The position numbers and the translations under genes are program-made. Under the pieces are notes generated by a model that was not told the DNA's origin, ran no database searches, and saw only the letters and a list, made by a program, of their open reading frames with translations. From IMG/VR virus record IMGVR_UViG_3300042691_025837, positions 1 to 37,470 of that record: DNA of 37,470 nucleotides. One strand, written 5' to 3'. Below are positions 13,404-30,264 of this stretch, one piece after another. This stretch comes from a virus. Numbering within the stretch: the stretch's first letter is position 1; every line of letters begins with the position of its first letter.

Positions 13404-14408
13404 TTAGTTCAGGTGGTTGCTCGTCGTGACGCTGAACTTGCCGTAGTAGGCGTTGTTCACCTGCAGGCCGCTCGTGCTGCCCGCCTGATTGACGCCGAGC
13501 AGGTTTTGCGTCACCACGCGGTCGAACAGCGTTTCCAGGCCCACCGAGCAGACGACGTGAGCCGTCTTCGGCGAGATGACGAGCTGTTCGTGCGGGTATT
13601 CGGTCGGGTCGGTGACGAGGGCCTTAGGCAGTTCGAATCGACGCAGCGCCTGGCGAGCACAGTCGACGGCGCCGATCAGTTCCAGCACGCTCGGCGTGTT
13701 GGTGATCTCGACCATGACGGCGTTCCACCAGTAGCCGAACGCCGCGGCAGCTTCGAGGTCGATCCAGAAATCGGCCTTCTTCGCCTTGCTCGACTGCGGC
13801 GTGCCGGCGTCCGTCATGAAATTCGGCTTCTTGCGGGTCTGGTAAATCATCGGATTGAGAACCGAATCCTTCACCAGCATCACGAATCGATGCGTGAGCC
13901 CGTCTGACGTCGCCGCAGCGGTGACGCCGAGAAGGTTGCCGCCCGTGTTGCCCGACGTGCCGGGGATGCTGGTCGCATAGCCGCCGATGTTGTGGCTCGT
14001 CGCAAAGAAGTTGGACCCATCGAAACAGGTTGTCGACTTGCCGGCCGCAAGCGTTTGAAGGATGAGACGCGATTTGAACGGCGTCTTGGACTTCTCGACG
14101 AGGTCGCGCATCCGCAGCTTGTAGCCGCCGACCTGATCATCCTCGACGTCGCGAAGCGACACCGAGAACGCCCCGTCATATTCGAGGTTCTCGACGGAGT
14201 ACTTGACAGGGCTCATTTGAGCCAGACGGCGATAGCCCTGGTAACGGCTGATGCCGGGGGCCGGCGTCATCCATGCGTAGTTCTCGATGCGGGCGGTCGA
14301 AGGAACGGGAGTAACCCAGTCCTCGATCGGCGCCGGCTCGGCGGCTCCCTCCATCGAATTGAGGAATTCCGCACGCATGGCCGCGGTGAAAATCGTGATG
14401 TCTGCCAC
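13404..14408 (-). CDS. Major capsid protein (Mu gpT-like)
   Basis: The 334-residue protein matches the gpT major head subunit pattern: PSTARIENYAWMTPAPGIS, then RRLAQMSPVKYSVENLEYDGAFSVSLRDVEDDQVGGYKLRM (about residues 60-100), then CFDGSNFFATSHNIGG (about 128-143). The C-terminus carries beta strands. It starts at GTG 14408 behind leader R2, and no processing-site peptide of the T-F-S-E type is seen in it. The upstream neighbours are protease-scaffold and decoration-like genes, as in Mu-like heads. A hairpin but no clear terminator follows. Confidence 0.88.
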   Translation of the reverse strand: MADITIFTAAMRAEFLNSMEGAAEPAPIEDWVTPVPSTARIENYAWMTPAPGISRYQGYRRLAQMSPVKYSVENLEYDGAFSVSLRDVEDDQVGGYKLRMRDLVEKSKTPFKSRLILQTLAAGKSTTCFDGSNFFATSHNIGGYATSIPGTSGNTGGNLLGVTAAATSDGLTHRFVMLVKDSVLNPMIYQTRKKPNFMTDAGTPQSSKAKKADFWIDLEAAAAFGYWWNAVMVEITNTPSVLELIGAVDCARQALRRFELPKALVTDPTEYPHEQLVISPKTAHVVCSVGLETLFDRVVTQNLLGVNQAGSTSGLQVNNAYYGKFSVTTSNHLN

Positions 14409-15792: not shown

Positions 15793-17022
15793 TCACCCGG
15801 CGAACTTAACGCCAAGCTCCAATTCGCGCCGGTTGTCGGCGTTCGCCTTGTCCCATGCGGACAGGAATTCCGCCGGCTCCATGCCGATCAGCGGAAACTC
15901 GCTGTAGGTTTCGATGTGAGCCGCCAGGCGTTCCCGGCGTCCCTTGTTCGCGTCCTCGCTGAACGTCGCCACGCCGCCGGTCCCCGTCGGGATGCGTTCG
16001 CGATTGAGCCGCGGAGCTCGCTTGCTGATCGCTCGCATCTCGGCGTCAAGCTGCGTCATCTCGATCTTGTTGCCGTTTTCGGAGAACGTGTGAACCTTGG
16101 CCGTGTCGTCGAGAGCGAAGAGTCGATCGGCGAGCGTCGGGCCGGCGCCGGCGTCCATGTCGGCGGGGTCAATGCGGCCGGAACGCAGATGGGTTTCGCA
16201 GAAGATGTCGATCCGTTGGCGCTTGAGGGCCGATTCGTTGGCGCTCAGCTTGTCGGTGATTCGCTGATTGAGAGCCGGGGTCAGTTTCTCCGCAAGCCGG
16301 TCGGTGATGACTTCAAGTTGGCCTTCCGAGAACGTGGCGATCTGTTCGACCTTCTGGCCTGCCGCGTCAAACAAGCGGACGCATTCGGCAAGTTGCTCCT
16401 CGCTGTACGTCGCAAGCAATTCGGCGTTTCCGCCTGCGCTGGTCAGCTTCGAAACCATCTCGTCGCGGGTCATCGGAACGTCCTCAGAGAAAGTCGTGTA
16501 GCCGGATTCTCGCGTTCGCCGGGCCCTCGTCACCGCCACCTTCGGCCATGACTCGGAGCATGTCACAAGCTTGTCTTTCAGGCCCGTCCCAGCGTTGAGC
16601 CCCTTCACGAAGGGGATGTCGCCGCCGAGGATCGCCAGCCGCCGAAACATCTTGCCTTTGGCGCCACGCCGCCTGAACTCGTCGGGCGGATCATGGTAAA
16701 TCTCGGCGGAAACGTCCTCGAAGTTGCCCGCCTTGATCGCGTTCGCCAGGTCTTCGTCCACTCCGTCGATGTCTGCCTTGAGAACTTCGCCTTCGCGATA
16801 CAGCCGGCCGTGATCGCCACGTTTGGCGACGGCTGAATTGTGCAGGTCTTTTTCCGTGTGTCCGACAACGACGGGGGCGCGTTGCAATCGGTTCGCGCCA
16901 AGCTTGGGGCTTTGGAACATCTCAAAATTGCGGATCATGTCGTCGAGATCGTTCGTCGAGAAGTGGTTTCCTCGATGAACGCCTGCCCGAAAAACTTCCA
17001 CGCCTTTGAGTGCTGTCCCCAT
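15793..17022 (-). CDS. Prohead protease fused to scaffold (Mu gpI/Z-like)
   Basis: The ATG at 17022 gives 409 residues. The N-terminal domain has the phage protease pattern: APVVVGHTEK with likely catalytic His55, then LKADIDGVDEDLANAIKAG and VSAEIY with likely catalytic Ser105, then RRLAILGGDIPFVKGL. From residue 176 the protein becomes helical and scaffold-like. It is cut up by six copies of a short peptide: TTFSE (176), ATYSE (204), ATFSE (229), HTFSE (311), ATFSE (352) and ETYSE (371). None lies inside the protease domain. The pieces between them are helical peptides, as expected for a scaffold degraded during head maturation. Motif C is 39 bases upstream, so the gene opens a transcription unit. 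Confidence 0.85.
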   Translation of the reverse strand: MGTALKGVEVFRAGVHRGNHFSTNDLDDMIRNFEMFQSPKLGANRLQRAPVVVGHTEKDLHNSAVAKRGDHGRLYREGEVLKADIDGVDEDLANAIKAGNFEDVSAEIYHDPPDEFRRRGAKGKMFRRLAILGGDIPFVKGLNAGTGLKDKLVTCSESWPKVAVTRARRTRESGYTTFSEDVPMTRDEMVSKLTSAGGNAELLATYSEEQLAECVRLFDAAGQKVEQIATFSEGQLEVITDRLAEKLTPALNQRITDKLSANESALKRQRIDIFCETHLRSGRIDPADMDAGAGPTLADRLFALDDTAKVHTFSENGNKIEMTQLDAEMRAISKRAPRLNRERIPTGTGGVATFSEDANKGRRERLAAHIETYSEFPLIGMEPAEFLSAWDKANADNRRELELGVKFAG

Positions 17023-17060
17023 GGTTGCGAGGCATGATGACACACGCCCGCCCGAACCGT

Positions 17061-17071
17061 CAAAAAAGGGG
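17061..17071 (-). promoter_or_regulatory. Late promoter-like motif C (CCCCTTTTTTG)
   Basis: Minus-strand copy 39 bases before the protease-scaffold start, in the 85-base gap between that start and the divergent plus-strand gene at 17108. The upstream flank reads ATTCCCC, as expected from motifs A and D. Confidence 0.45.
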
Positions 17072-17107
17072 AATGATTTTTTTCCAAAAACGGTTAGACT
17101 CGACAGA

Positions 17108-17437
17108 ATGGCATCTTTCTTTGACATCATTCCGTCATCATTCGTGGACGACTATCGCCTGCAGTGGCGTGAGCGCAGCGCAGACTTTGGCAAAGCAGAA
17201 GGCGGGGTCATTTATTTCGTCAACTATGAAGCCGCAATCGATGCTGACGTGGTCAATATTTATGGGCATCGTACGCGATGCTTCTTCTTCGGCCGCGGGA
17301 TGCCACGCCTTCTCGGCGAAAGGCAGGATTACGTCATCAACTTCGCCGGCGAGGAAGTGTGCTGGCATATGAGCTATCGCAAGACCGGCCTGAGTGCAAA
17401 CCTGCAATACGTGCTGGCAGGCCACGGAATTCAATGA
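17108..17437 (+). CDS. Plus-strand 109-residue hypothetical protein (moron-like)
   Basis: This soluble protein reads against the late operon and ends one base from the convergent stop of the F-like gene. Its codon choice is natural on this strand, while the opposite frame has a poorer amino-acid mix, so I take the plus strand as real. The sequence is aromatic-rich (DIIPSSFVDDYRLQW, CFFFGRGMPRLL, CWHMSYRK) with no family I recognise. Placed between two late units with its own short upstream region, it looks like a moron, but function is unknown. Confidence 0.6.
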   Translation: MASFFDIIPSSFVDDYRLQWRERSADFGKAEGGVIYFVNYEAAIDADVVNIYGHRTRCFFFGRGMPRLLGERQDYVINFAGEEVCWHMSYRKTGLSANLQYVLAGHGIQ

Positions 17438-18352
17438 CTATGTCGCCAGCCGCGTCAGCTTCGCGCCCTGCTTTTGCAGGCTCGCCCACTTGAACTTGTT
17501 GATCGGAATGAAGTTGCAGCGGCAATTTGCAACGTCGCGAATCTCGTTACCGCGCACATCCCAAAACGACACGTCGCGATCGAAGAACTTGCCGAACCAT
17601 CGATGATGATCGGGCTTGTCTGGAAGCGGGCCCATACGCTCGCGTCCGTCGGGAATGCCGGAGTATTGCCAGACCGGGAACATCGCCACCACGTCCGGGT
17701 CGTTGAACTCGTTCCACGAGCCGCGCCGATAGGCTTCCATCGTATTCGTTCGCCAGACCATTTCGGCGTATTGCGGGTTCTTCGGCGCCACGCCAGCCGC
17801 CTCGAGGATCTCTTGAATCTCCCGCGGTGCGTTGCGGACCTGCCGGCCCGTCTCCATGCGCTCCGTGATAATCCTCGCCACGGCGCGGCGCACGGTGGTT
17901 GATGTCGTCGCGGCGATCGTGAACGCCTGCCCGGTGACGAGGGAGCCGAATAGCGCGTCACCGATCCGGATGGGAATCAATCGCCGGAAGTAATCGAGGG
18001 CGCTTTGCGGTGTGAGAAGCTTGATCAGTTCGCGGAGCGTGTAATCTTCGGGCTCGTTGAATGTCGCCACGGACTCCATCGCCTCGGCCAGAGCTCGACG
18101 AATGCGGGCCCTGCCGAGCAGCTCGCAGACAGCCAGCGGGCCGGCGATGGCATTCGCCAGGCGGTTCGTCTCGGAGTCGGTAAAGAGCCCGCTATCGTCG
18201 CCCGCAATCGCCGCGGGCTTGACGACGGCGCGCTTGAGAGCGGATTCTGTTACCCCTTGCAGGGCTTCGGCGAATCCGTCTTGGGCGTCGTCCACGTACC
18301 GAACGAGTGCTGGCGTCAGATCGTCGGCGGCCTTGATGATTGTGGCCGGCAT
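17438..18352 (-). CDS. Minor head protein, Mu gpF-like head morphogenesis
   Basis: The 304-residue protein ends with the F-like signature: MVWRTNTMEAYRRGSWNEF, then MFPVWQYSGIPDGRERMGP, DKPDHHRWFGKFFDRD and the closing RCNFIPI motif. F-like proteins bind the portal region inside the prohead. One candidate processing peptide, ATFNE, occurs at residue 96, at the boundary between the first helical domain and the rest. The ATG at 18352 overlaps the preceding stop (TGATG). It is the last gene of the portal unit, followed by a convergent plus-strand gene. Confidence 0.85.
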   Translation of the reverse strand: MPATIIKAADDLTPALVRYVDDAQDGFAEALQGVTESALKRAVVKPAAIAGDDSGLFTDSETNRLANAIAGPLAVCELLGRARIRRALAEAMESVATFNEPEDYTLRELIKLLTPQSALDYFRRLIPIRIGDALFGSLVTGQAFTIAATTSTTVRRAVARIITERMETGRQVRNAPREIQEILEAAGVAPKNPQYAEMVWRTNTMEAYRRGSWNEFNDPDVVAMFPVWQYSGIPDGRERMGPLPDKPDHHRWFGKFFDRDVSFWDVRGNEIRDVANCRCNFIPINKFKWASLQKQGAKLTRLAT

Positions 18353-19428
18353 CAAACGGCTCCGTGCTTTTTCGCCATTTGAAAGCAGCGGTCAGTCAAT
18401 TTGTCCATGAACTCGATCGCGGCAAGCGAGTCGTGGGCAGCATCCGGCTCGCTGTGGATCTCGACATGAGTCGGCAGGACGGCGCGGGCGACGGCTCGCA
18501 CCGCATGAACCAAAGCGATTGCCGGCATTGCCAGTGCCGCGGCCCCCAGCTTCGCCGATGCCGTCACTATTTCCGGAATTGTGTCCACGGCCATGGCCGA
18601 GAGCAGCCCGGGGCCAATCAAAGCCGCCGCCGACGCTCCACCAGCAATTGCGCCCGTTGCGGCCAAGGCGACAATGGGAGCAGCTCCAGCCATGCCGTAT
18701 TTGTCCACAAGGGCCGACACTTCCATATTGGCCGCATCGACAACCGCAGCCGTGAATGTGTCGGTGTTCAGGTTCGGATTATCGGCCACAGCGGGCATGA
18801 CGGCCTTCTCGTACTCTCCAGCCTCTTGAACCTTCTGTGCCGTGTCGCGGCCACTCCACTTGGATGCAACGGAACTCGCCAACGCTGCGGCCCGTTCGGG
18901 GACTGCGGCACGGTCGGCCTTGATCGTGTCTGCGATGTCCTGCGGCTCGACTTGGCTGTTTCCAAAGATTTCCTCGAGATCCTTTTCCGAGATCGGAGGC
19001 AACGAATCGGGGGCCGGGCCGCCGAATGTTTTCTTGAGCTCCGCGTCGTCCATCGGCTTTGTCAGCGCATCCTGTTTCGCTTCAGGCTTCGACTTTGCAT
19101 CCGTATTCGTCTTGGCTCCTGCCTTCCGTCCCTTGGCCGGGTTGTCCTTCGAGTACTGAATGGCTCCCGTCTTCGTGTGCCGCCAGCGGTTCTGCGTCCG
19201 CTTCGTGGGCTCGCGCGTCCACTCCGATTCGGCGAACGTCGCAACCATGGCCGCTTCGTCTTCGGCGGTCCAGTGGTTCGACGTGATGCCTACGGATCGC
19301 TCAAGCTGCACCTTTTCGGCGACGGGCGAGCGCTTCCACTCGGCGACGAAAGCGGCCGGCGACATGGGTAGCGATGCGGCCTCGGCGAAGGTGGCGATGC
19401 GGGAAAGCTTGAGGTCGGTGGTGGTCAT
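18352..19428 (-). CDS. Modular head-associated protein sharing linker modules with the portal polyprotein
   Basis: I place the start at ATG 19428, which overlaps the polyprotein stop as ATGA (358 residues); a longer frame to 19524 would overlap the portal gene by 100 bases. Residues 12-16 read ATFAE and residues 63-67 read ATFAE again. The second is followed by the module EW-PTKRTQNRWRHTKTG-IQYSKDNP, also present in the polyprotein. A Lys/Asp/Glu-rich linker follows, then an Ala-rich hydrophobic region (about residues 235-300) that could insert in or lie on a membrane. It is probably an internal virion protein delivered or processed with its neighbours; function unknown. Confidence 0.7.
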   Translation of the reverse strand: MTTTDLKLSRIATFAEAASLPMSPAAFVAEWKRSPVAEKVQLERSVGITSNHWTAEDEAAMVATFAESEWTREPTKRTQNRWRHTKTGAIQYSKDNPAKGRKAGAKTNTDAKSKPEAKQDALTKPMDDAELKKTFGGPAPDSLPPISEKDLEEIFGNSQVEPQDIADTIKADRAAVPERAAALASSVASKWSGRDTAQKVQEAGEYEKAVMPAVADNPNLNTDTFTAAVVDAANMEVSALVDKYGMAGAAPIVALAATGAIAGGASAAALIGPGLLSAMAVDTIPEIVTASAKLGAAALAMPAIALVHAVRAVARAVLPTHVEIHSEPDAAHDSLAAIEFMDKLTDRCFQMAKKHGAV

Positions 19429-22400
19429 CGGTTCGGTTCCTTCTGGAAATGCTTCTGGCGAATCGCCGCGAATAACGCTTCGAAGTGTGGAGCCATCTTT
19501 TCCGACTCTTGTTTGGTCGGCCAAAGCGGATGTCCCGTCTTGTGCAGCCCGGTCAGGTACGTATTCTCGCGGCCCTGCGAATGCAACTTATCCTGAATGT
19601 GGCGCTCAAACGTGCGGGCAAACATCTCCGTGCTCGACGCCCAATATTCCAAGGCATTTTTCGGCAGCACACCGTCACGAATTCGTTGGCGGACTTCGCT
19701 GACGAGGCGGCTTTTGAATCCGCTGTCAACCATCGCCTTTCGAACAGCCTTCATTGTTTCCCCGACCGGGCCGTCCTGAACTCTTTCGCTACTGAAGCTC
19801 TTGAAATCTGACAGGTAATTATCGAGACCATGACCCCATTCGTGAGCGAGCGACCCAACGCCTTTTGCTCGCGTTAAGTTGATGACTTGGCTATCCGATT
19901 CGTAATGAGCACGAGCCCCCGCCTTGCCTCGGGCTCCAATCGCCAGGCCAAGTTTACCGCCAAGCGAAATAGCGTCATCGGGGAAGCCGGTTGCGTCGGC
20001 AAGATCAGCAAACGCCTCCGCGGTTTTCGTGAGGTGGTGTTGCCGCTCGTCGTCGGTGACGTAGTTGCCCCACTGGACGCCACGAAGCTTGAGGTTGTCC
20101 AGCAAGAATGCCCTCCCGGCCTCCACGGTTGCAGCATCAATCACGCGCCCCCCTTTTCGCTCTGCATGGTTGACGTAAGCATCGGACGGGTTAAATCGCT
20201 TCGGGCCCGACCCGCTTGCGCCGAACGTCTTGTTGAAGGAGCCCCCTTCGATAACGTCTTCAACGTGAGACTTGATCTTGTCGAGCATCTCAACTGACAC
20301 ATTCTTGCCGTATTTCGCGATCACGCGGCCCATGAAGTCTTCCATACGGCCGAGAATATCGTTCTTGCGTGGACGCCCCCAGATGGGCACTTCCAGACGC
20401 TCATGCAGGTCAACAAGGCCGTTTGCCACAGGGTTGTAAGGATCGTTTTCGCGATGCTTTGCAATGATGCCGCCAACATGCTTGCGGATATTCTGGATCG
20501 CTTCTTTGTGGTCCTTCGTGGTGATTGCCTGGCTGGAAGCAAAGTCCCGCACATTCTTGTAGGCGTCGAGGTATTGCTGGCGAAGCTTGTCGGGCGCGGT
20601 CGGCGGCGGAAGCTTCTGCCCGGCTTGCGGGCCTCGATTCCATGTGTAGAGATGGTAGTTTTTGGGGTATTCGCCAGGCTCCTTTGGGAACGCATTGATC
20701 GCCAAGTGAGCAACGAGATGCGGCACCGCCGTTGTGTTCGTGATCGTCGCCATCAATTCATGCGGCTCGATCTTGAGCAATGTGTCGCGCGTCATCATCG
20801 CGGCGGCCGTGCCGTCCGCTTCGGCTTGAGCAAGGCCGCGCCATTCGTTGGCTGTGTGACGCGCCGCACCCTTCAGGTCTTCACCGAAATTCGGCACCGC
20901 TGAATCGCGGGCAAACTCGTATTCAGAAGTTTCCGCTTGCGTGATCGCCGCCGCTACCTCGCGAGGGCTTTCATCTTTCGCTTCGGCTTCTTCTGCGGCC
21001 TTTGCGGCTGGCGACGATGGGGCATCATCAAACGTCATCGTCTCAGGAACGGCTCCAACAGGTTCCGGCTTCGCGATCTCCGGCGCATCCCCCAGCGCAT
21101 CCAGCATCCCCTCGGCCATCTTGAGTTGCTGAGCGAACCATGCCCGATTTGTCTCGTTGTCCGCCGCGTCGTGCCCCTTCTGGAGATCGCCGATTAACTC
21201 CTCAATCCGATGATGCGTCAGCTCCCCGTGATGGGCTTTGAGCGCCGCTAGGATTCGCTTCGCCCGCTTCTTCTGCGGCTCGGCCAACTCCGTCGCGGCA
21301 TGCGGCTTGAGTTGTTCGCGGAGCTTCGCCGTGTCCACCGTGCCACGTTCTCGGCGAGCTTTGTTCCGGTCGTCCTTCGTTCGCCCTGGGTTCTCGTCGG
21401 AGTAGCGGACGAGGCCACTCTTGACATGCACCCAACGACGTTGCGACCGTGGCCCCGGCTCCTTTCGCCAGTCCTCTTCGGCGAACGTGTCGGCATCATC
21501 CACGCGGATGACAGCCCACTTGTCATTGTCGTTGCTGAGACGCCATGGCGTGTTCAGTAGCTCGGCGTCCGCGGCGTCGATTTGCTCCTCGCTGACCGTG
21601 CCGCCGTGCGATTCGATGCCGTTCCACAGGTCGGCGTAGTAGTCGGCCAGGGCCTTGGACGAATCAGCCCAAATTGCACGGCGAGCGATGCTCATCGCCT
21701 GACGCCAATCGCCCTTCGTCCGATCCATCGCCACCATGAAGCAGCCGGCCGCCATGTCGGCATCCGGCACCGATAGCAACCATTCCACGAACTCATGGCG
21801 GAACGCTTCGTTATCCGCCTCGGCGAACGTCGCAGCGCTGCCACCCATGGCCGACGACACAAGCCCATGAATCGCCTTGAGCGTCGCCACAGGGTTTTTG
21901 GCCGCCGACACCGAGAGATAGGCGAGCGATCCGAGCGGCAGGAATCCGCCCAACTTCTTGGCGACAAAGCCGAGCCCGATTGTCGACGCGGCGAAGCCAA
22001 CGCCGTAAGCGACAACATAATCAGCCGCCGACGTGTACCATGCGATGTTCGCCACCTGCTCATCCGACAGTCCGCGGGCCTTGGCGACCTGCTTGACGGC
22101 CGCATGAGCGGCGGTGAACGTGGCGCCATAAGCGGCGTGAAGCTTCTTGAGCGGCTCGGCAATGGGCTTGGGGAGACGATTGACTTGATTGGCGACGAGC
22201 TTCTTGAACTCACCATGCACTTCGGCAGCCAGGCCACCAACAGCCTTGGCATGCTTCATGATCGCCTTGACGACGGTTTTCTTCGAGGCGGCGTATTGTT
22301 CGCGGCGTTGGCGAGCTTCGACAGCGGCTTTTGCCTGACCGTGCGGCTCATCGCGGCGCCAGCGGTGATTGTGGAAAACGAGCCCAGACGAGTTCCGTTC

Positions 22401-25400
22401 GCCTTCGCGCGGGCCTTCGTTGAAGATTTCCGCCCAGTCGGGTTCGCTGAACGTGGACCACTTTTGGATTGTGCGGATAACCTTGTGGTGCTGGCGGTTT
22501 TTCTCTTTTTGCGATTCTGCCTTTCTGTCAATCTCCATCTCAAAATCTGCGTCCGTTGGGTCGTCAGCTTCAAGTAGGCCCCAAACCGGTTCGTCGTCCG
22601 CCCCGTACTTCTGTTGAATTTCCTTGAACTGATCGACCGGCACAGACATGGCTACTTGCGTCGCACCCATATCGCGCATGACGGCAAAGCGGTGCCGTCC
22701 GTCCTCGAGGGACAGCCCGTTTCTGTCAAGCGTGCCGCGGCTTGCCTGGACCGGCTTTCCTGTTTTCAAGAACTCTTTGAATGCCTTGCGGCCGCCGAGC
22801 TTCTCCGATTGACCGTAATAGGGTCCGTCTTTTCTTTCCTTGGGCAAATAATAGCCGATCTTCTCATCCGCTTTTTTCCACGCTTCTTCCACTTTGCCGA
22901 CATCGACCATGAGCGTGCGATAGCCGCCGGAGCTCATGGCGCTGGCATTCGGGATGAACGAAATCTCTTGGCCGCCGACATTCGCTTTGCCGATGACGGC
23001 ATCCGGTTCCTCGTCCGGCTCGACGCGACTGCTTGCCGCCCCAAACTCAAAATCCCCTACTTCTCCTCCGGCTCCTTCTTCGTCGGCCATGCCGCCAAGA
23101 GCTTCGCCAGCTTCCCATGCTTCGCCTTCAGCGCGGCCAGCTTCTTCGCCTGCTCGTACAGCGGCTTCAACTTCGGATTCGTCGGCATGCTGCTTGGCAT
23201 TTTCCAGTTCCTCGTAATACTTGGCTTGCTCGGCTTCAAGCTGCTTGCCCATGTCGGCGTGCAGGCTTGTGGCCTTGTTCTGGAGCAACTCCATCAAGTA
23301 ATCGTCGGCGTTGCGGCCTTCGGGGACCTTGATGTGTCCCTCTTCCGCAAGGCTCTGGGCGATGTCATCGAGTCCGGCGCCGCCGCTCTTGGAAAATAGC
23401 CCAAGCAATCCAGCTTGGGCGAAATCCTCGCCGATGTTCCAATCGTCGCCCAGCTTCGCCCGAGAGATTCCGCCACGCTTCTTGATGATCGAGGCGAGCG
23501 ATTCTCCCTTCGTTTCCTGCGGCTTGCTGCCGGCCTTAGCCACACGATTATACACCGCCTTGGCAAGCTTCGCGTCCCCTGCGCCGACAGTGAACTTGTC
23601 GCTCACCTGCTGCATGCCGCTGACGGCTTGCTTCTCGGCGTCGGAGAGATCAACGCCCGCTTTTCGGGCCGCTTTCACGAGCTCCGCACCGCTGACCGTT
23701 TTGCCGCCGGCGATCGAGCGAACAAGGTCGTCAGACGCCGACGGACGTCCGGGCGCGTCCTTGAGCTTTGCCGCTTCGACCGAGCGTTCCTTGACCGCCT
23801 GGACGATGGCCGCCACCATCTCGGCCTTGCGGCCGGTCGCGGTGATGTTGTTGGTCGCCTTGAGCTCCTTGAGCTGCGGAATCGTCAACTCGTTGAGTGC
23901 CTTGGCTACGTCGTCGCGGGCTTGCATGTCGCCCGAGAGCATGCGCCCAACGAGGTCCTTTGCCGACGACAGACGCGATGCCTTGTCTTCCGGCGAGTTC
24001 TTTCGTCCCTTGCCCTTGCCCGGGTTTTCGTCGGCGTACTTGACCTGGCCCGTTTTGACATGGACCCATCGCCGCTTCGAACGCGGGCCCGGCTGCCGGC
24101 TCCAGTCCTCCTCCGCGAAGACGAGCACCGCCCAATCCTGTTCCTCGCCGTCGTCCTCGCTGAAGCCGATGAACTTGCGGACCTTCGAGAGAAGCCCCTT
24201 GTTCTTCGCCGCAGCGTTGGCCTGGTTCGTGGCGAGCGTGCGGGCCGTCTCGAAGTCGAGCGCCTCGCCCGTGTCGTCGTGGAAGACAGTCAGGGGAACA
24301 CCAGTGCGTTCGCTGAACTGCCGCATGACATCGGCGTGCGGGCCAATGGTTTCCGACGCCGGGATGCGGATTTCCTCGACGGCCTCCTTCGTCAGTGGAA
24401 ATTCTCCACCCCAGACTTGGACTTCGGTGTAAGCATCGTGGCCGGCGTCGTGCTCGATGCCAGCCGCCCTGAGCGCTCGCCGGTTTGCCGCCAGCGCCGC
24501 CAGTGGATCTGCCATCGTGCCCGTCGTCGAGGCGTCCCGCAGGCCCCAAGTGTCGCGGGCTGTGAGTGTCGCACGATCTTTGATCGCGTCTTTCTTCAGG
24601 ACGAGGCACGCATTACCGTAGACCGGAGCCGCGCCGTTCCGTGAGCGCCCACCCCAGTTGACGGCAGCGTAGATCGGTCGTTCTTCGTCCGGAACGTCGG
24701 TCGCCCCCAGGACACTGGATTCCACCTTGCGGCGCATGCCAAGGTAGCCGGCGTCGTTTTTCTTCGTGCCGCCGAATGACGTTTTGAGTGAGCCGCTGCC
24801 AAAGATGCCGGCGGCCGATGCCGACGGGCTGAAATTGACCGTGACTTCGGCGTCATCGAGGGCCTTTTGCAGGCGCTTCGCGTGCGCCGCCGTGTCGCCG
24901 CCGATCTTCGCGACCGCTGCCTCTCCGCGGGCCTTCGCCTCGCTCTGGTGCGTTTTCAGGACGCTGGATGTCTTCGCCGACAGCTTCTTGGCCGCCGAGC
25001 TCTGCTTGCCGCCCTTGGCGTCATCGCTGGCCGCTTGCTTCGGCTGATCGGGCTGCGCGGGCTGGCGTCCGTCGCCGCCAGGATTCGTGTCGGCGTAGAC
25101 CTTCTGGCCGGTCTTGGAATTGACCCAGAGGCGGGACGACCGCGGGCCCTTTGTGTGGACCCAGTCCTGAGCATTGAACGCCTCCGGCTCCTCGCCCTCG
25201 CCCTCGCCCTCCGTTTCCTGCCATTCCCCTTCGTCGGCCCCTTCTTCATCCTTGCCGCCGCCAAGCCACCCCTTCATAATTTCGGCGATCAGCTTGGCCT
25301 TTTCTTCCTGATCCTCGCCGTCGTTGCTCTGATCGTAGATGAATCCTTCAGGATCGCCGCCCGGCGCCGGAGGCATGCCGCCTGCTTGGCCGAGGTCGTA

Positions 25401-26861
25401 ATCCTCCATCGGCATGCCGTCCGGCTGCTGGCCGTTCGGGTCGCCAGGCATCGCCGGATTGCCGCCCATGGGCTGCCCCGGCATCGGCTGGCCGGGGATC
25501 GGCTGGCCGTCCGGGCCCATGCCGCCGCCAGCCTGTTGAGCCTCGACGAATTTGCGGCCGTAACGATCTTCGAGCTCCTCGCGGTCGAGCTGCAGGCCGA
25601 GCGGCTGCACGATTCTTTGCAGCGATTCGTCAACCCGCACCGATTCCGTCAGTTCTCGGTCGTCGACGCCGCCGGCGGATGCCACTGGATATTCGTCGAT
25701 GCCGCTGAAATTGAGGTCGACAAGCCAGGGAATGATGCCGTTTTCGTGATCGTTGAGCAAATGGCACAGAGCGGACACCAAGTGCCACGCAGCAAGGTCT
25801 GCGGTGTCCTTGTGAACGTCGGAGCTGCCCCGTTGATTGGGGCTGGTCATCGTTTGCAGAATCGCCCACAGGATCGACGTCGTCACTTCTTCGCGGAGGT
25901 CGCGAACCGCTTCGCTGAAGATTTGATGCGACTGGCCGGCGATGTCAAAGGCTTGAAGCTGCGTGTCTTTGGGGACGCTGAGCCAGTTTTGATACCGGAT
26001 CTTGGCCAGCGCCGTTTCCAACTTGCTTTGCGCCTTGGGATCGGCCCATTCGCCGACGATGATGGGCATCGATCGCTTATCAATCGCCAGCGCTCGCAGC
26101 TTCCAGACCGTGTCCAGAAGCCAGTAGGCGCGATATGCGGCCCGAAAATCGGACATGCCGACCGGGTTTTCGTACAGGCCCAGGTGCGTGTAGATGACGA
26201 AATCTTTCGGATTGAAGACTTCGCCGCCGTTGTAACGCAGGCCACGAATGCCGGTGATGTTCTTGAAGGCGTCGATTTCCAGGACGAGATCCTGATTGAC
26301 GTCCTTTGCCTTGAGGCGAGCAAGGCGCCGCTTGCCCTTCCACGGGCCCGACTCCTCGACCGGCCCCACGATCTTTTCGCAGACGGAAACGCCGTCTATG
26401 AGCCCGCCGCTGAAGATATCCCAGACCATGCCCGGGATGCCTTCATGCAGGCCGTGCTTGAGATTCCAGTCGATGAACTCGGCGGCCTTCTGATGCCGCT
26501 GTGACTTGCGTTTCGATTTCGGCGGCCGGACGGACAGTTCCGACGATGCGACCGCCATGACCTTCCGCATGAAGGCGGATTTAACGTATGGCTCGGCGAG
26601 CATGCGGCGGTAGGCGTCTCGCATCTCGGCGGTTTCGCCTGCCGTCTGGAGTGTGTCAAAGTAGGGCAGGAACGCAGGGATTGGGACCGCCGAGCGAATC
26701 TTTTCGCTCGTGGATGTTGAATAGTCGCCGTCGTCGTACGATCGGCGTCGTGTTGAAGACGTGAAGCTCGTTGACCTGGATGATTCCGCGAAGAATTCCG
26801 CGTCAAAATCGCCGAGCGCAGAGACGGAGATGCCGACGGGGAATTGCTCAAACGGAGGCAT
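19425..26861 (-). CDS. Giant portal polyprotein: DUF935 portal fused to polyvalent domains and LPD1 zincin
   Basis: One open frame of 2478 codons starts at ATG 26861; upstream in-frame sequence crosses motif D and is not taken. Residues about 50-440 match DUF935/Mu gp29 portals (PVGMSDFRAAYRAYWLLD, SMPIIVGEW), ending in a Pro-Gly-Met linker. Next come a tryptophan linker module (about 560-595), an ADP-ribosyltransferase-like DUF3626-type domain (about 720-840; RPIYAAVNWGG, YTEVQVWGGEF), a second linker module (914-950) and a SAP-like helix pair (about 985-1020). A polyvalent helical domain follows (about 1105-1205), then an acidic linker and a ParB-like domain with DGRHRF at 1387. A third linker is at 1469, a hydrophobic helical region at about 1590-1670, and a fourth linker at 1791. 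The C-terminus is an LPD1 domain with HEWGH at 2340. Candidate cleavage peptides lie at 898, 914, 1469, 1677 and 1791. Confidence 0.85.
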   Translation of the reverse strand: MPPFEQFPVGISVSALGDFDAEFFAESSRSTSFTSSTRRRSYDDGDYSTSTSEKIRSAVPIPAFLPYFDTLQTAGETAEMRDAYRRMLAEPYVKSAFMRKVMAVASSELSVRPPKSKRKSQRHQKAAEFIDWNLKHGLHEGIPGMVWDIFSGGLIDGVSVCEKIVGPVEESGPWKGKRRLARLKAKDVNQDLVLEIDAFKNITGIRGLRYNGGEVFNPKDFVIYTHLGLYENPVGMSDFRAAYRAYWLLDTVWKLRALAIDKRSMPIIVGEWADPKAQSKLETALAKIRYQNWLSVPKDTQLQAFDIAGQSHQIFSEAVRDLREEVTTSILWAILQTMTSPNQRGSSDVHKDTADLAAWHLVSALCHLLNDHENGIIPWLVDLNFSGIDEYPVASAGGVDDRELTESVRVDESLQRIVQPLGLQLDREELEDRYGRKFVEAQQAGGGMGPDGQPIPGQPMPGQPMGGNPAMPGDPNGQQPDGMPMEDYDLGQAGGMPPAPGGDPEGFIYDQSNDGEDQEEKAKLIAEIMKGWLGGGKDEEGADEGEWQETEGEGEGEEPEAFNAQDWVHTKGPRSSRLWVNSKTGQKVYADTNPGGDGRQPAQPDQPKQAASDDAKGGKQSSAAKKLSAKTSSVLKTHQSEAKARGEAAVAKIGGDTAAHAKRLQKALDDAEVTVNFSPSASAAGIFGSGSLKTSFGGTKKNDAGYLGMRRKVESSVLGATDVPDEERPIYAAVNWGGRSRNGAAPVYGNACLVLKKDAIKDRATLTARDTWGLRDASTTGTMADPLAALAANRRALRAAGIEHDAGHDAYTEVQVWGGEFPLTKEAVEEIRIPASETIGPHADVMRQFSERTGVPLTVFHDDTGEALDFETARTLATNQANAAAKNKGLLSKVRKFIGFSEDDGEEQDWAVLVFAEEDWSRQPGPRSKRRWVHVKTGQVKYADENPGKGKGRKNSPEDKASRLSSAKDLVGRMLSGDMQARDDVAKALNELTIPQLKELKATNNITATGRKAEMVAAIVQAVKERSVEAAKLKDAPGRPSASDDLVRSIAGGKTVSGAELVKAARKAGVDLSDAEKQAVSGMQQVSDKFTVGAGDAKLAKAVYNRVAKAGSKPQETKGESLASIIKKRGGISRAKLGDDWNIGEDFAQAGLLGLFSKSGGAGLDDIAQSLAEEGHIKVPEGRNADDYLMELLQNKATSLHADMGKQLEAEQAKYYEELENAKQHADESEVEAAVRAGEEAGRAEGEAWEAGEALGGMADEEGAGGEVGDFEFGAASSRVEPDEEPDAVIGKANVGGQEISFIPNASAMSSGGYRTLMVDVGKVEEAWKKADEKIGYYLPKERKDGPYYGQSEKLGGRKAFKEFLKTGKPVQASRGTLDRNGLSLEDGRHRFAVMRDMGATQVAMSVPVDQFKEIQQKYGADDEPVWGLLEADDPTDADFEMEIDRKAESQKEKNRQHHKVIRTIQKWSTFSEPDWAEIFNEGPREGERNSSGLVFHNHRWRRDEPHGQAKAAVEARQRREQYAASKKTVVKAIMKHAKAVGGLAAEVHGEFKKLVANQVNRLPKPIAEPLKKLHAAYGATFTAAHAAVKQVAKARGLSDEQVANIAWYTSAADYVVAYGVGFAASTIGLGFVAKKLGGFLPLGSLAYLSVSAAKNPVATLKAIHGLVSSAMGGSAATFAEADNEAFRHEFVEWLLSVPDADMAAGCFMVAMDRTKGDWRQAMSIARRAIWADSSKALADYYADLWNGIESHGGTVSEEQIDAADAELLNTPWRLSNDNDKWAVIRVDDADTFAEEDWRKEPGPRSQRRWVHVKSGLVRYSDENPGRTKDDRNKARRERGTVDTAKLREQLKPHAATELAEPQKKRAKRILAALKAHHGELTHHRIEELIGDLQKGHDAADNETNRAWFAQQLKMAEGMLDALGDAPEIAKPEPVGAVPETMTFDDAPSSPAAKAAEEAEAKDESPREVAAAITQAETSEYEFARDSAVPNFGEDLKGAARHTANEWRGLAQAEADGTAAAMMTRDTLLKIEPHELMATITNTTAVPHLVAHLAINAFPKEPGEYPKNYHLYTWNRGPQAGQKLPPPTAPDKLRQQYLDAYKNVRDFASSQAITTKDHKEAIQNIRKHVGGIIAKHRENDPYNPVANGLVDLHERLEVPIWGRPRKNDILGRMEDFMGRVIAKYGKNVSVEMLDKIKSHVEDVIEGGSFNKTFGASGSGPKRFNPSDAYVNHAERKGGRVIDAATVEAGRAFLLDNLKLRGVQWGNYVTDDERQHHLTKTAEAFADLADATGFPDDAISLGGKLGLAIGARGKAGARAHYESDSQVINLTRAKGVGSLAHEWGHGLDNYLSDFKSFSSERVQDGPVGETMKAVRKAMVDSGFKSRLVSEVRQRIRDGVLPKNALEYWASSTEMFARTFERHIQDKLHSQGRENTYLTGLHKTGHPLWPTKQESEKMAPHFEALFAAIRQKHFQKEPNR

Positions 26862-28567: not shown

Positions 28568-30046
28568 TCAAAACCTCATCCCCAGATAATCCACCCCGCC
28601 GCCCTCATCCTGCCGTTCACGCCTGCTCGCATCAAACACCGTCTGCGGCATCCGGTTGAGGATGTTATCAGACGGGTCCGAGCCGGAGATTTCCCACGCC
28701 CCGGCGCCGCCGTCCGCATGCTTCACAGCGTAGCGCACGCCATCGACGCCATGGTCATTGATTTTCACCGGCTCCTCGCCCTGGTTGCGGCTCTTTTCCT
28801 TGTCCCAGACGTATCCGTCCCATTCCTCGTCAGTACAGCACGGCTTTTTCGAGTCGCTCAGTGCCGGGTCCCGATAGACGAGCGAGTCCCGCAGGAAGAA
28901 GATTCGCGGCTTGCCGTCGCCGGCGACCTGGAGCCGTGCGGAGACTGCTTGGATGCCCTCCCGCACGTCCTTGATTGCTGCCGTCGTGCTGCGTCCCAGG
29001 TGCCGCTCGAGCGTTGCCCGCCCCTCGGCGTCGTGGTCGCAGATGATCGCATCAACGTCGTCGATCGTCTCCCGCCAGTTGCCATCGTCGCCCCGGCCGT
29101 CGGTCGCCATCGCCTCGAGGATGTCCGCCGCATGATCCTCAACGAGCTGTTTCGTTCGGTAAATCTCGCGGTAACGGTAGAGTCGCCCGTCGCCGTCCAG
29201 CGCCCACCACTGGGCCACAAACGGATTTGTGTACCCAAAATCGACGGTCATGAATCGCGGCCAAGATCGCGGAATCGTTCGCCGGTCGATGAGATGGATG
29301 GCCGCGTCGTAGTTGGCGTAGACGACGCCTTCGGCCTGCACCCATCGACCATGCCGGAGCCGGTCCTTGCGCGGTCCGGTGAGCGCGTCGAGCAGCGACA
29401 GGTATCGCTCGCCTCGTGGCGTGAGCTTGCCCGTTGTTTGATCGAAGAGAACCGGGTTGTCCTCGTGCCGGCATTCGATGAGCGTTGTCCGGCCGGCATC
29501 GCAGCGGCGTTTGAGCCAGTGTTGTGGGGAATCGGGGTTTGTGTCCGCGATGAGCTGCTGATACGTCATTTTGCCGTTTCGAAGTCGAGTCGTGAGCGAC
29601 TCCCAGTCGTTTTCGGTAAGCTCAATGGCTTCTTGGACATAGATCATGTCGTATTCGGTCGACATGATCTTCGTCGGCTTGTCCATGCCGCCGACGACGA
29701 TCGCTGATCCGTTGGGATACTGGTATGCTTGCCGCATCTTCCGTTGACCGCCCGAATCCAAGATCAGATGACCGGCCTCAACGACGTGCGATTCGAAAGT
29801 GACAAGGGCCGTTTCGGTGAGAGACTCGCGGGTTTTGCGGATGATGAGGGCCCGCATTCCGGGATAGTTCTGCGCGGCAAGGTGCAGCTTTTCGAGGGCC
29901 GCGCGGCTCTTGCCTGTGCCTGCGGGTCCCGAGAGAAGAATTTCCGGATCACGGCACCGCATCAGCTTGAGGGCGGCGCCGTAGGGGCGATAGGGGCGGC
30001 ACTCGCTGCGATTGAGGTCAGCGGCGGTTGCGGTAGATGACGGCAT
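28568..30046 (-). CDS. terL: Terminase large subunit
   Basis: The 492-residue DNA-packaging ATPase/nuclease has Walker A GPAGTGKS at residues 40-47 and a hydrophobic strand ending in YVQEA (about 136-140) as Walker B; the usual Asp-Glu reads Gln-Glu here. The coupling region IADTNPDSPQHWLKRR follows. The nuclease domain begins with VDFGYTNPFV (Asp269) and includes IICDHDAEGR and a later acidic DHGVDGVRYAV strand. ATG 30046 overlaps the preceding stop (TGATG) and has GAGG upstream, so it is preferred over the GTG one codon earlier. The wording is closest to PBSX-type terminases. Confidence 0.92.
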   Translation of the reverse strand: MPSSTATAADLNRSECRPYRPYGAALKLMRCRDPEILLSGPAGTGKSRAALEKLHLAAQNYPGMRALIIRKTRESLTETALVTFESHVVEAGHLILDSGGQRKMRQAYQYPNGSAIVVGGMDKPTKIMSTEYDMIYVQEAIELTENDWESLTTRLRNGKMTYQQLIADTNPDSPQHWLKRRCDAGRTTLIECRHEDNPVLFDQTTGKLTPRGERYLSLLDALTGPRKDRLRHGRWVQAEGVVYANYDAAIHLIDRRTIPRSWPRFMTVDFGYTNPFVAQWWALDGDGRLYRYREIYRTKQLVEDHAADILEAMATDGRGDDGNWRETIDDVDAIICDHDAEGRATLERHLGRSTTAAIKDVREGIQAVSARLQVAGDGKPRIFFLRDSLVYRDPALSDSKKPCCTDEEWDGYVWDKEKSRNQGEEPVKINDHGVDGVRYAVKHADGGAGAWEISGSDPSDNILNRMPQTVFDASRRERQDEGGGVDYLGMRF

Positions 30047-30264
30047 CACCGATCCTCGTCCATGGCCTTTTCTGCCGCCTCGACGAAGCTGCTGTCGTAC
30101 TCTCGTTTGTGCGTGAACATCAGGCTTACATCACGTCGTCCCGGGTCGTCATGGTCGAGCAGCTCGAAGCACGCCGCGCAGAACTCGCCGACACTCGCCC
30201 CCAGGATCGTCGCCCGATTGATCCACGCAAACCGGCCGCATTCCTTGCAGTGGCCTTCTCGCAC
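30046..30264 (-). CDS. Small zinc-ribbon protein
   Basis: The 72-residue protein begins at GTG 30264, two bases after the preceding stop and with GAGGG upstream. It has two cysteine pairs, CKEC and CAAC (about residues 6-9 and 29-32), separated by 19 residues, followed by an acidic C-terminal tail. This fits a single zinc ribbon. Such genes often lie between the terminase genes of phages without known role. Confidence 0.6.
   Translation of the reverse strand: MREGHCKECGRFAWINRATILGASVGEFCAACFELLDHDDPGRRDVSLMFTHKREYDSSFVEAAEKAMDEDR

Follow-up and report, generated by a model that had tools for sequence, protein, structure and literature searches.

The tripeptide [FY]-[SA]-E recurs in the head proteins of phages that encode a B3/BcepMu-type protease and, judged from sequence comparison, is likely to be the P3-P2-P1 maturation cleavage code of this protease, which would cut C-terminal to the glutamate. 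Because the peptide is found in head proteins of relatives with the same protease type and is absent with the other type, a cut signal is its most likely meaning. Cleavage after the motif glutamate in scaffold, portal polyprotein and cargo had been suggested by a first-pass annotation of the DNA analysed here; the sequence evidence favours this suggestion, and no cut has been observed.

The analysed DNA (the window, 37,470 bases) is an entire virus record from start to end, and its minus strand, to which all window coordinates below refer, carries a Mu-like head module. This comprises a large terminase (28568-30049), a portal polyprotein of 2478 residues (19425-26861; PF06074, E=4.5e-35; PF18796 LPD1, E=2.4e-15), a presumed cargo protein of 358 residues with two motif copies (18355-19428), a MuF-like minor head protein of 305 residues (17438-18355), a protease-scaffold fusion of 445 residues (15793-17130) and a major capsid protein of the gpT type (13404-14408; PF10124, E=5.4e-33). 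The 358-residue protein gave no match in Pfam and a weak one to PHROG 24083 (E=4e-5). The MuF-like protein matched PHROG 220, 'minor head protein and DNA pilot' (E=2.5e-15), and PF04233 at E=4e-5, which falls below Pfam's cutoff. The protease-scaffold matched PHROG 976, the B3/BcepMu-type head maturation protease, over residues 36-409, covering protease and scaffold (E=8.4e-23). The window holds head genes of a tailed phage related to Mu, with a protease of the B3/BcepMu type (PHROG 976). An identity as Mu-type protease I was rejected: the match is to PHROG 976 instead, the YEH and YFSPVF residues are absent and there is no Pfam match. The window protease also grouped with the B3-type seeds, but it was itself one of those seeds.

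We asked how often the motif would arise by chance. Over the 29 gene models of the window, T[FY][SAN]E was observed 12 times against 0.48 expected from composition shuffles (maximum 4 in 1000), and all 12 copies were confined to the protease-scaffold, the MuF-like protein, the 358-residue protein and the portal polyprotein; the major capsid protein has none. The protease-scaffold alone contains six (0.026 expected), a number reached by none of 20,000 composition shuffles and none of 3000 dipeptide-preserving shuffles. For the looser [FY][SA]E the null is less extreme, with six copies in this protein against 2.1 and 6 of 3000 dipeptide-preserving shuffles reaching that count. Every copy that the first-pass annotation had listed was recovered at its place: TTFSE, ATYSE, ATFSE, HTFSE, ATFSE and ETYSE in the protease-scaffold, ATFNE in the MuF-like protein, ATFAE twice in the 358-residue protein (from residues 12 and 63) and STFSE, ATFAE, DTFAE, VFAE and GFSE in the portal polyprotein. 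Additional [FY][SAN]E copies, which it had not listed, lie at residues 24, 315, 849 and 1480 of the portal polyprotein and at 28 and 196 of the MuF-like protein. Those at 315, 849 and MuF 196 seem to be buried in folded domains and probably do not serve as sites; indeed, reading the motif as a cut code means that copies within folded domains must be assumed to stay uncut. The reported variety of serine codons in the scaffold copies was also found (TCT, AGC, TCG, TCC, AGC and AGC), and because the codons differ between copies, the repeat is maintained at the protein level.

In the protease-scaffold, residue numbers refer to the longest open reading frame; the earlier numbering counted from a later start, so that its Ser105 is our Ser141. 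His91 (GH motif) and Ser141 (VSAE) are invariant or nearly so, and the GH and S columns are invariant in two of our alignments (A3 and A9), as for the conserved His and Ser of a serine protease. All six copies lie C-terminal of the protease domain. The annotation's statement that the motif never enters this domain is therefore right for the window, but it does not extend to relatives, in which copies do occur there. We predicted the structure with AF2 from a 16-sequence alignment (mean pLDDT 70, pTM 0.36) and assigned secondary structure by DSSP. TFSE 213-216 at the protease/scaffold border (16483-16494; codons TTC TCT GAG G) ends a short low-confidence strand in the model. TYSE 241-244 (16399-16410) is placed in a loop ahead of helix 244-264, TFSE 266-269 (16324-16335) in a loop ahead of helix 269-282, TFSE 348-351 (16078-16089) in a predicted beta hairpin, TFSE 389-392 (15955-15966) in a low-confidence loop ahead of a helix and TYSE 408-411 (15898-15909) in a break between two helices. 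Four scaffold copies are thus modelled in loops or where a helix starts or breaks, and one in a hairpin; counting strand ends as well, five of the six are predicted at loops, strand ends or helix starts, with low confidence for some.

Used as a single query sequence, the window protease retrieved no relatives from viral contigs or from genomes. Relatives (L002-L006 and L011-L013) were obtained by searches with the capsid protein, and the genome collections contributed only one distant locus. The protease-scaffolds of these relatives contain four to seven [FY][SAN]E copies each: 4, 5, 5 and 6 in L002-L005 against 0.35-0.68 expected, 4 against 0.46 in L011 and 7 against 0.79 in L013. The leading threonine of the first-pass motif holds for the window virus but not for the general code, as relatives have T, R, K, H or other residues at P4; Thr at P4 was accordingly rejected. 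What is conserved is the core [FY]-[SA]-E, and the Thr is particular to the window virus on the sequences compared. The same triplet is present in the isolated phages B3, phiSHP3, RR1-B and phiT1, which have related proteases; the Mu, D3112 and JBD30 scaffolds, which go with the Mu-type protease, lack it. The code is not uniform throughout. The L171 scaffold has solely FGE, FTE, FDE and FVE, and the newer relatives L191, L192, L194 and L195 have just one or two copies each (11 against 1.9 for the five new ones pooled). Within the window clade, scaffold copies favour Ser at P2 (25 S, 7 A) and portal and MuF copies favour Ala (7 S, 19 A), a split that perhaps reflects graded cutting.

To compare the two protease types, 80 Mu-type loci (L027-L106) and 80 B3-type loci were fetched, their open reading frames were called and classed by phmmer, and the proteases were dereplicated at 60%, leaving 24 of the B type (six of them from the window clade) and 15 of the Mu type. 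An unbiased count of all tripeptides in the dereplicated scaffold regions put FSE on top in the window clade (16 vs 0.3 expected) and FAE on top in the other B-type phages (41 vs 2.6). In Mu-type scaffolds LSA, AAL, IAA, ALT and ALS were raised (LSA 22 vs 3.3), and neither FSE nor FAE was among their listed enriched tripeptides. Counted as a pattern, [FY][SA]E occurred 87 times against 7.3 in the 18 other B-type protease-scaffolds and 32 times against 2.6 in the six of the window clade, but only twice against 3.9 in the 15 Mu-type ones. Homologues that keep the protease while losing the motif at random, which the annotation had named as grounds for refutation, are hence not what these counts describe. 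A null that preserves dipeptides left the B-type excess standing (87 vs 21, maximum 33). The control pattern [LIVM][SA]E was near expectation in B-type scaffolds (29 vs 23), and [FY][SA]E was at chance in the unclassified other genes of the loci. The gpT/capE capsid proteins showed no copy at all (0 vs 2.9 in other B-type phages, 0 vs 1.7 in the window clade), as would be expected if the shell protein has to remain whole. Pooled counts are partly inflated by homologous scaffold positions, and recurrence within proteins and in other genes therefore weighs more.

The Mu-type pattern, [AVS][LV][ST]A, was at 5 vs 4.6 in B-type scaffolds, 1 vs 1.2 in the window clade and 32 vs 4.3 in the Mu type. 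Peptides resembling [AV]L[ST]A recur in Mu-type scaffolds, as in Mu itself (L024; AALTA, AALSA, SLSA, AALSA, AALSA and VLSA) and also in JBD30 (L023) and D3112 (L026). From sequence, [AV]L[ST]A is a candidate for the cut code of Mu protease I.

As scaffold and protease are encoded in one gene, some of the scaffold signal is due to common ancestry, and the portal is the better test. Portals were dereplicated at 75%, and the tail was taken as everything beyond the position of Mu residue 388, of which the first 200 residues were searched; splitting by alignment column occupancy had misassigned the linker to the 'core', and Mu residue 388 was used instead. [FY][SA]E was found in the tails of 12 of 18 B-type portals (2.1 expected by shuffling), of five of six in the window clade (0.6 expected) and of none of 11 Mu-type portals. 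Together, 17 of the 24 B-type and window-clade tails carry the motif against none of the 11 Mu-type tails (Fisher P=1e-4; about 2.7 of 24 in shuffled tails). Six of the 18 B-type portals lack it, and the window's own portal is the sole member of its clade without a copy in the 200-residue stretch, its copies starting further out. The Mu-type motif was present in six of 11 Mu-type portal tails (1.6 expected), a looser pattern than that for the scaffolds. Several Mu-type portal tails carry AAL[SKA]. A cryo-EM structure of Mu lacks the final 124 residues of the portal gp29, a loss that the authors of the structure put down to protease I (PMC11915804), and gp29 has AALSA at 427-431, inside the missing part and 81 residues before the end. 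By analogy, the Mu case supports the logic that a peptide recurring in the scaffold also marks a cut portal linker, for the Mu-type motif only and without fixing the bond.

The portal polyprotein of the window consists of a Mu-type portal core (82-435), about 1970 residues of further domains and a C-terminal LPD1 (2403-2470), with an HEWGH motif immediately upstream of LPD1. It meets the description of a polyvalent protein, namely LPD1 (E=2.4e-15) in a 2478-residue protein with a portal core in a phage head region; a SAP domain in segment 918-1473 remained below threshold (E=0.005). Zincin-like motifs occur near the C end of both portal polyproteins, HEWGH in the window (19428-20561) and HELCH in L011 (174-3818). 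Motif copies in the polyprotein begin with FAE 24-26 (FFAE; 26784-26792), which is N-terminal of the portal core, a position where the RR1-B portal has FAE as well (residue 12). They continue with FSE 900-902 (GFSE; 24156-24164), FAE 915-917 (VFAE; 24111-24119), which is followed by an EDW module, TFSE 1470-1473 (22443-22454), followed by PDW, TFAE 1678-1681 (21819-21830), which comes after a hydrophobic stretch, and TFAE 1792-1795 (21477-21488), again followed by an EDW module. The 358-residue protein has TFAE 13-16 (19381-19392) and TFAE 64-67 (19228-19239), the latter followed by a SEW...NRW-type module. In the MuF-like protein, TFNE 98-101 (18053-18064) lies just upstream of the MuF domain core. 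The triplet stands just before this core in L004 and RR1-B too (FAE in both); at the same place L002 and L192 have FAE and L005 has FSD. In L002 (3137-5578) and L192 (7036-9483), portal and MuF are joined in a single open reading frame with FAE between them.

A repeated module, DW...GPRSxRRWxHxKTGxxxYxxENPG or EW..KHPR..GGQF, is usually found downstream of FAE. It is located at 562-600, 917-950, 1473-1505 and 1795-1830 of the window polyprotein, at 67-100 of the 358-residue protein and in L011, with variants in L004 and L013. Such a Trp-containing module starts within a few residues of the VFAE, TFSE and TFAE that end at 917, 1473 and 1795 and is possibly a tag for the start of cargo.

Maturation at glutamate is known from head proteases of the gp21 kind. 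The first-pass annotation had given the T4-type site as I/L-x-x-E, which is wrong: the site of T4 gp21 is L/I-X-E, with the cut on the C-terminal side of the Glu (PMC9026906). Read correctly, the T4 site is a closer parallel, with the same P3-P2-P1 layout as [FY]-[SA]-E. phiKZ cuts after S/A-X-E (PMC9026906) and SPN3US after A-X-E (PMC10052503). With T4 our system shares a weakly matching predicted fold (best TM about 0.5) and a scaffold with many candidate sites and, by inference, a three-residue code with Glu at P1 and processed internal proteins. Foldseek searches of the PDB ranked T4 gp21 first for the whole protease-scaffold model; for the protease domain, the Epstein-Barr virus protease came first and T4 gp21 had the best TM-score (0.51) among the matches listed. 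The matches were weak (best E 0.17 and 0.055, none below 0.05) and a sequence search of the PDB gave no match, leaving a predicted fold that weakly resembles T4 gp21 and herpesvirus proteases. The T4 rule of L or I at P3 is not met, as the recurrent triplet has an aromatic F or Y at P3 and a small residue at P2; moreover, the protease is fused to the scaffold, the window's major capsid protein has no site and the portal polyprotein carries cargo. phiKZ gp175 and SPN3US gp245 likewise use Glu at P1, cut many head proteins, including the portal and ejected proteins, and have several sites per propeptide, but P3 is S/A rather than F/Y and they belong to giant phages rather than a Mu-like head module. 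Mu itself, with its protease I, its scaffold Z and the portal gp29, has the same gene order, protease-scaffold fusion and gpT capsid and an annotated internal scaffold start, of which the window has a likely counterpart; its portal lacks a C-terminal tail in the virion structure, attributed to the protease (PMC11915804); it differs in its Mu-type protease, in scaffold repeats of [AV]L[ST]A instead of [FY][SA]E and in an ordinary portal without large fused cargo. The proteases of B3/BcepMu-type phages are of the same family by profile match (PHROG 976), and the motif is shared by the scaffolds and portal linkers of these phages, although P4 is mostly D, S or E there instead of the window's T and P2 mostly Ala instead of the Ser of window-clade scaffolds. 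Polyvalent proteins (LPD domains, MuF/portal fusions) are also large, multidomain and head-associated, carry LPD1 and have been proposed to be processed by peptidases (PMC5512222). There, processing is mostly assigned to built-in metallopeptidases, whereas here a separate head protease with a code is indicated.

The main rival to a cut code is a binding motif by which scaffold, portal and cargo all dock to one partner, be it a protease exosite, other scaffold chains or the shell, and are so collected in the prohead, much as with the T4 capsid targeting sequence. We consider this unlikely as the sole explanation, but it deserves to be taken seriously. The proteins with the motif (scaffold, portal, MuF and presumed cargo) are those that need to co-assemble, and in the window clade FAE is often followed by the Trp-containing module (EDW..RRWVHxKTG; EW..KHPR..GGQF). 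In addition, the scaffold site at 348-351, VH[TKR]FS[ED], keeps F and S invariant (alignment A1) but not always the Glu, which is replaced by Asp in L002, L005 and L011. Either Asp is accepted or this site serves another purpose; [FY][SA]D is likewise enriched in the window clade (11 vs 1.9). Against docking, the Glu belongs to the recurrent unit while its flanks drift, and copies lie at domain borders of fusion proteins. The major capsid protein is also a poor candidate for a simple docking partner. Scaffolds average 4.2 copies with a B protease and a gpT capsid, the combination found in the window clade, 3.5 with a B protease and capE, and 0.1 with a Mu-type protease and gpT. B-protease scaffolds are thus rich in the motif with either capsid and Mu-type ones with gpT are poor, so that the motif goes with protease type, not capsid type. 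Docking or packaging and a cut code are compatible and could coexist.

Much less probable is that composition and structure alone account for the motif, with aromatic-small-acidic triplets acting as helix caps in helical, Glu-rich scaffolds and spreading by descent from one ancestor. Many copies do sit at predicted helix starts and several gene classes show a mild excess of [LIVM][SA]E, but neither composition nor dipeptide shuffles reproduce the motif, Mu-type scaffolds are without it, and it appears in other genes, in portal linkers and ahead of MuF. We give still less weight to the idea that the portal polyprotein is cut at the motif by its own zincin-like LPD1 region at the C end: LPD1 with its nearby HEWGH is present and autoproteolysis by metallopeptidase domains has been proposed for polyvalent proteins (PMC5512222), but the motif is commonest in scaffolds, including those of B3 and phiSHP3, whose retrieved head genes show no such large fusion.

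The border copy has a second possible cause of conservation, because a GAGG Shine-Dalgarno lies within its S-E-V/D codons, 8 nt upstream of an in-frame ATG (16470-16494). This FSE-xxx-ATG layout is common to the window, L004, L005 and L011 (GAGG, spacing 8) and L002 (GGAG, spacing 9). The ATG is likely the internal start of a free scaffold, with initiation inferred from the sequence, and border cleavage and internal initiation would yield a nearly identical scaffold N-terminus. That the peptide persists merely because its codons form this Shine-Dalgarno, as in Mu I/Z, is the least credible reading, for although Mu, B3 and KS10 have annotated internal scaffold starts, it accounts for a single scaffold copy out of six and for no copy in the portal or the cargo.

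Under the preferred reading, a cut code, the protease would act inside the assembled prohead, where it would free itself near the protease/scaffold border, cut the scaffold into pieces of roughly 20-80 residues able to leave, trim or open the portal in its N-terminal and C-terminal linkers and release cargo domains, both those fused to the portal and those of the 358-residue protein. Recognition by the protease, cutting after Glu, the choice among copies, where and in what order processing takes place and the release of cargo are all inferred. The material available to us holds no observed cut for any B-type phage; a literature search for chain ends from mass spectrometry gave nothing usable, structure papers on XM1, 7-7-1 and P1 contained no B-type processing data, and we found no description of the cut sites of Mu-like head proteases in the literature searched.

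As far as that literature shows, the aromatic code, the difference between protease types and the use of the code in a portal polyprotein are new. In the fuller picture, a portal polyprotein of about 2500 residues with several cargo domains would be matured together with scaffold and cargo by the scaffold-linked protease at one [FY][SA]E code in the prohead, much as RNA virus polyproteins are, and clades of Mu-like proteases would differ in code (a Glu type, [FY][SA]E, and an Ala/Ser type, [AV]L[ST]A), with the sites in scaffold, portal and cargo changing along; this whole could as well prove wrong as right. If the code holds, it makes testable predictions for the model phages B3 and Mu and makes cargo borders readable in uncultured phages. 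It would also show which domains of head fusions are set free as proteins of their own, probably to be injected, and that the specificity of a protease changes in step with its substrate sites even in different genes.
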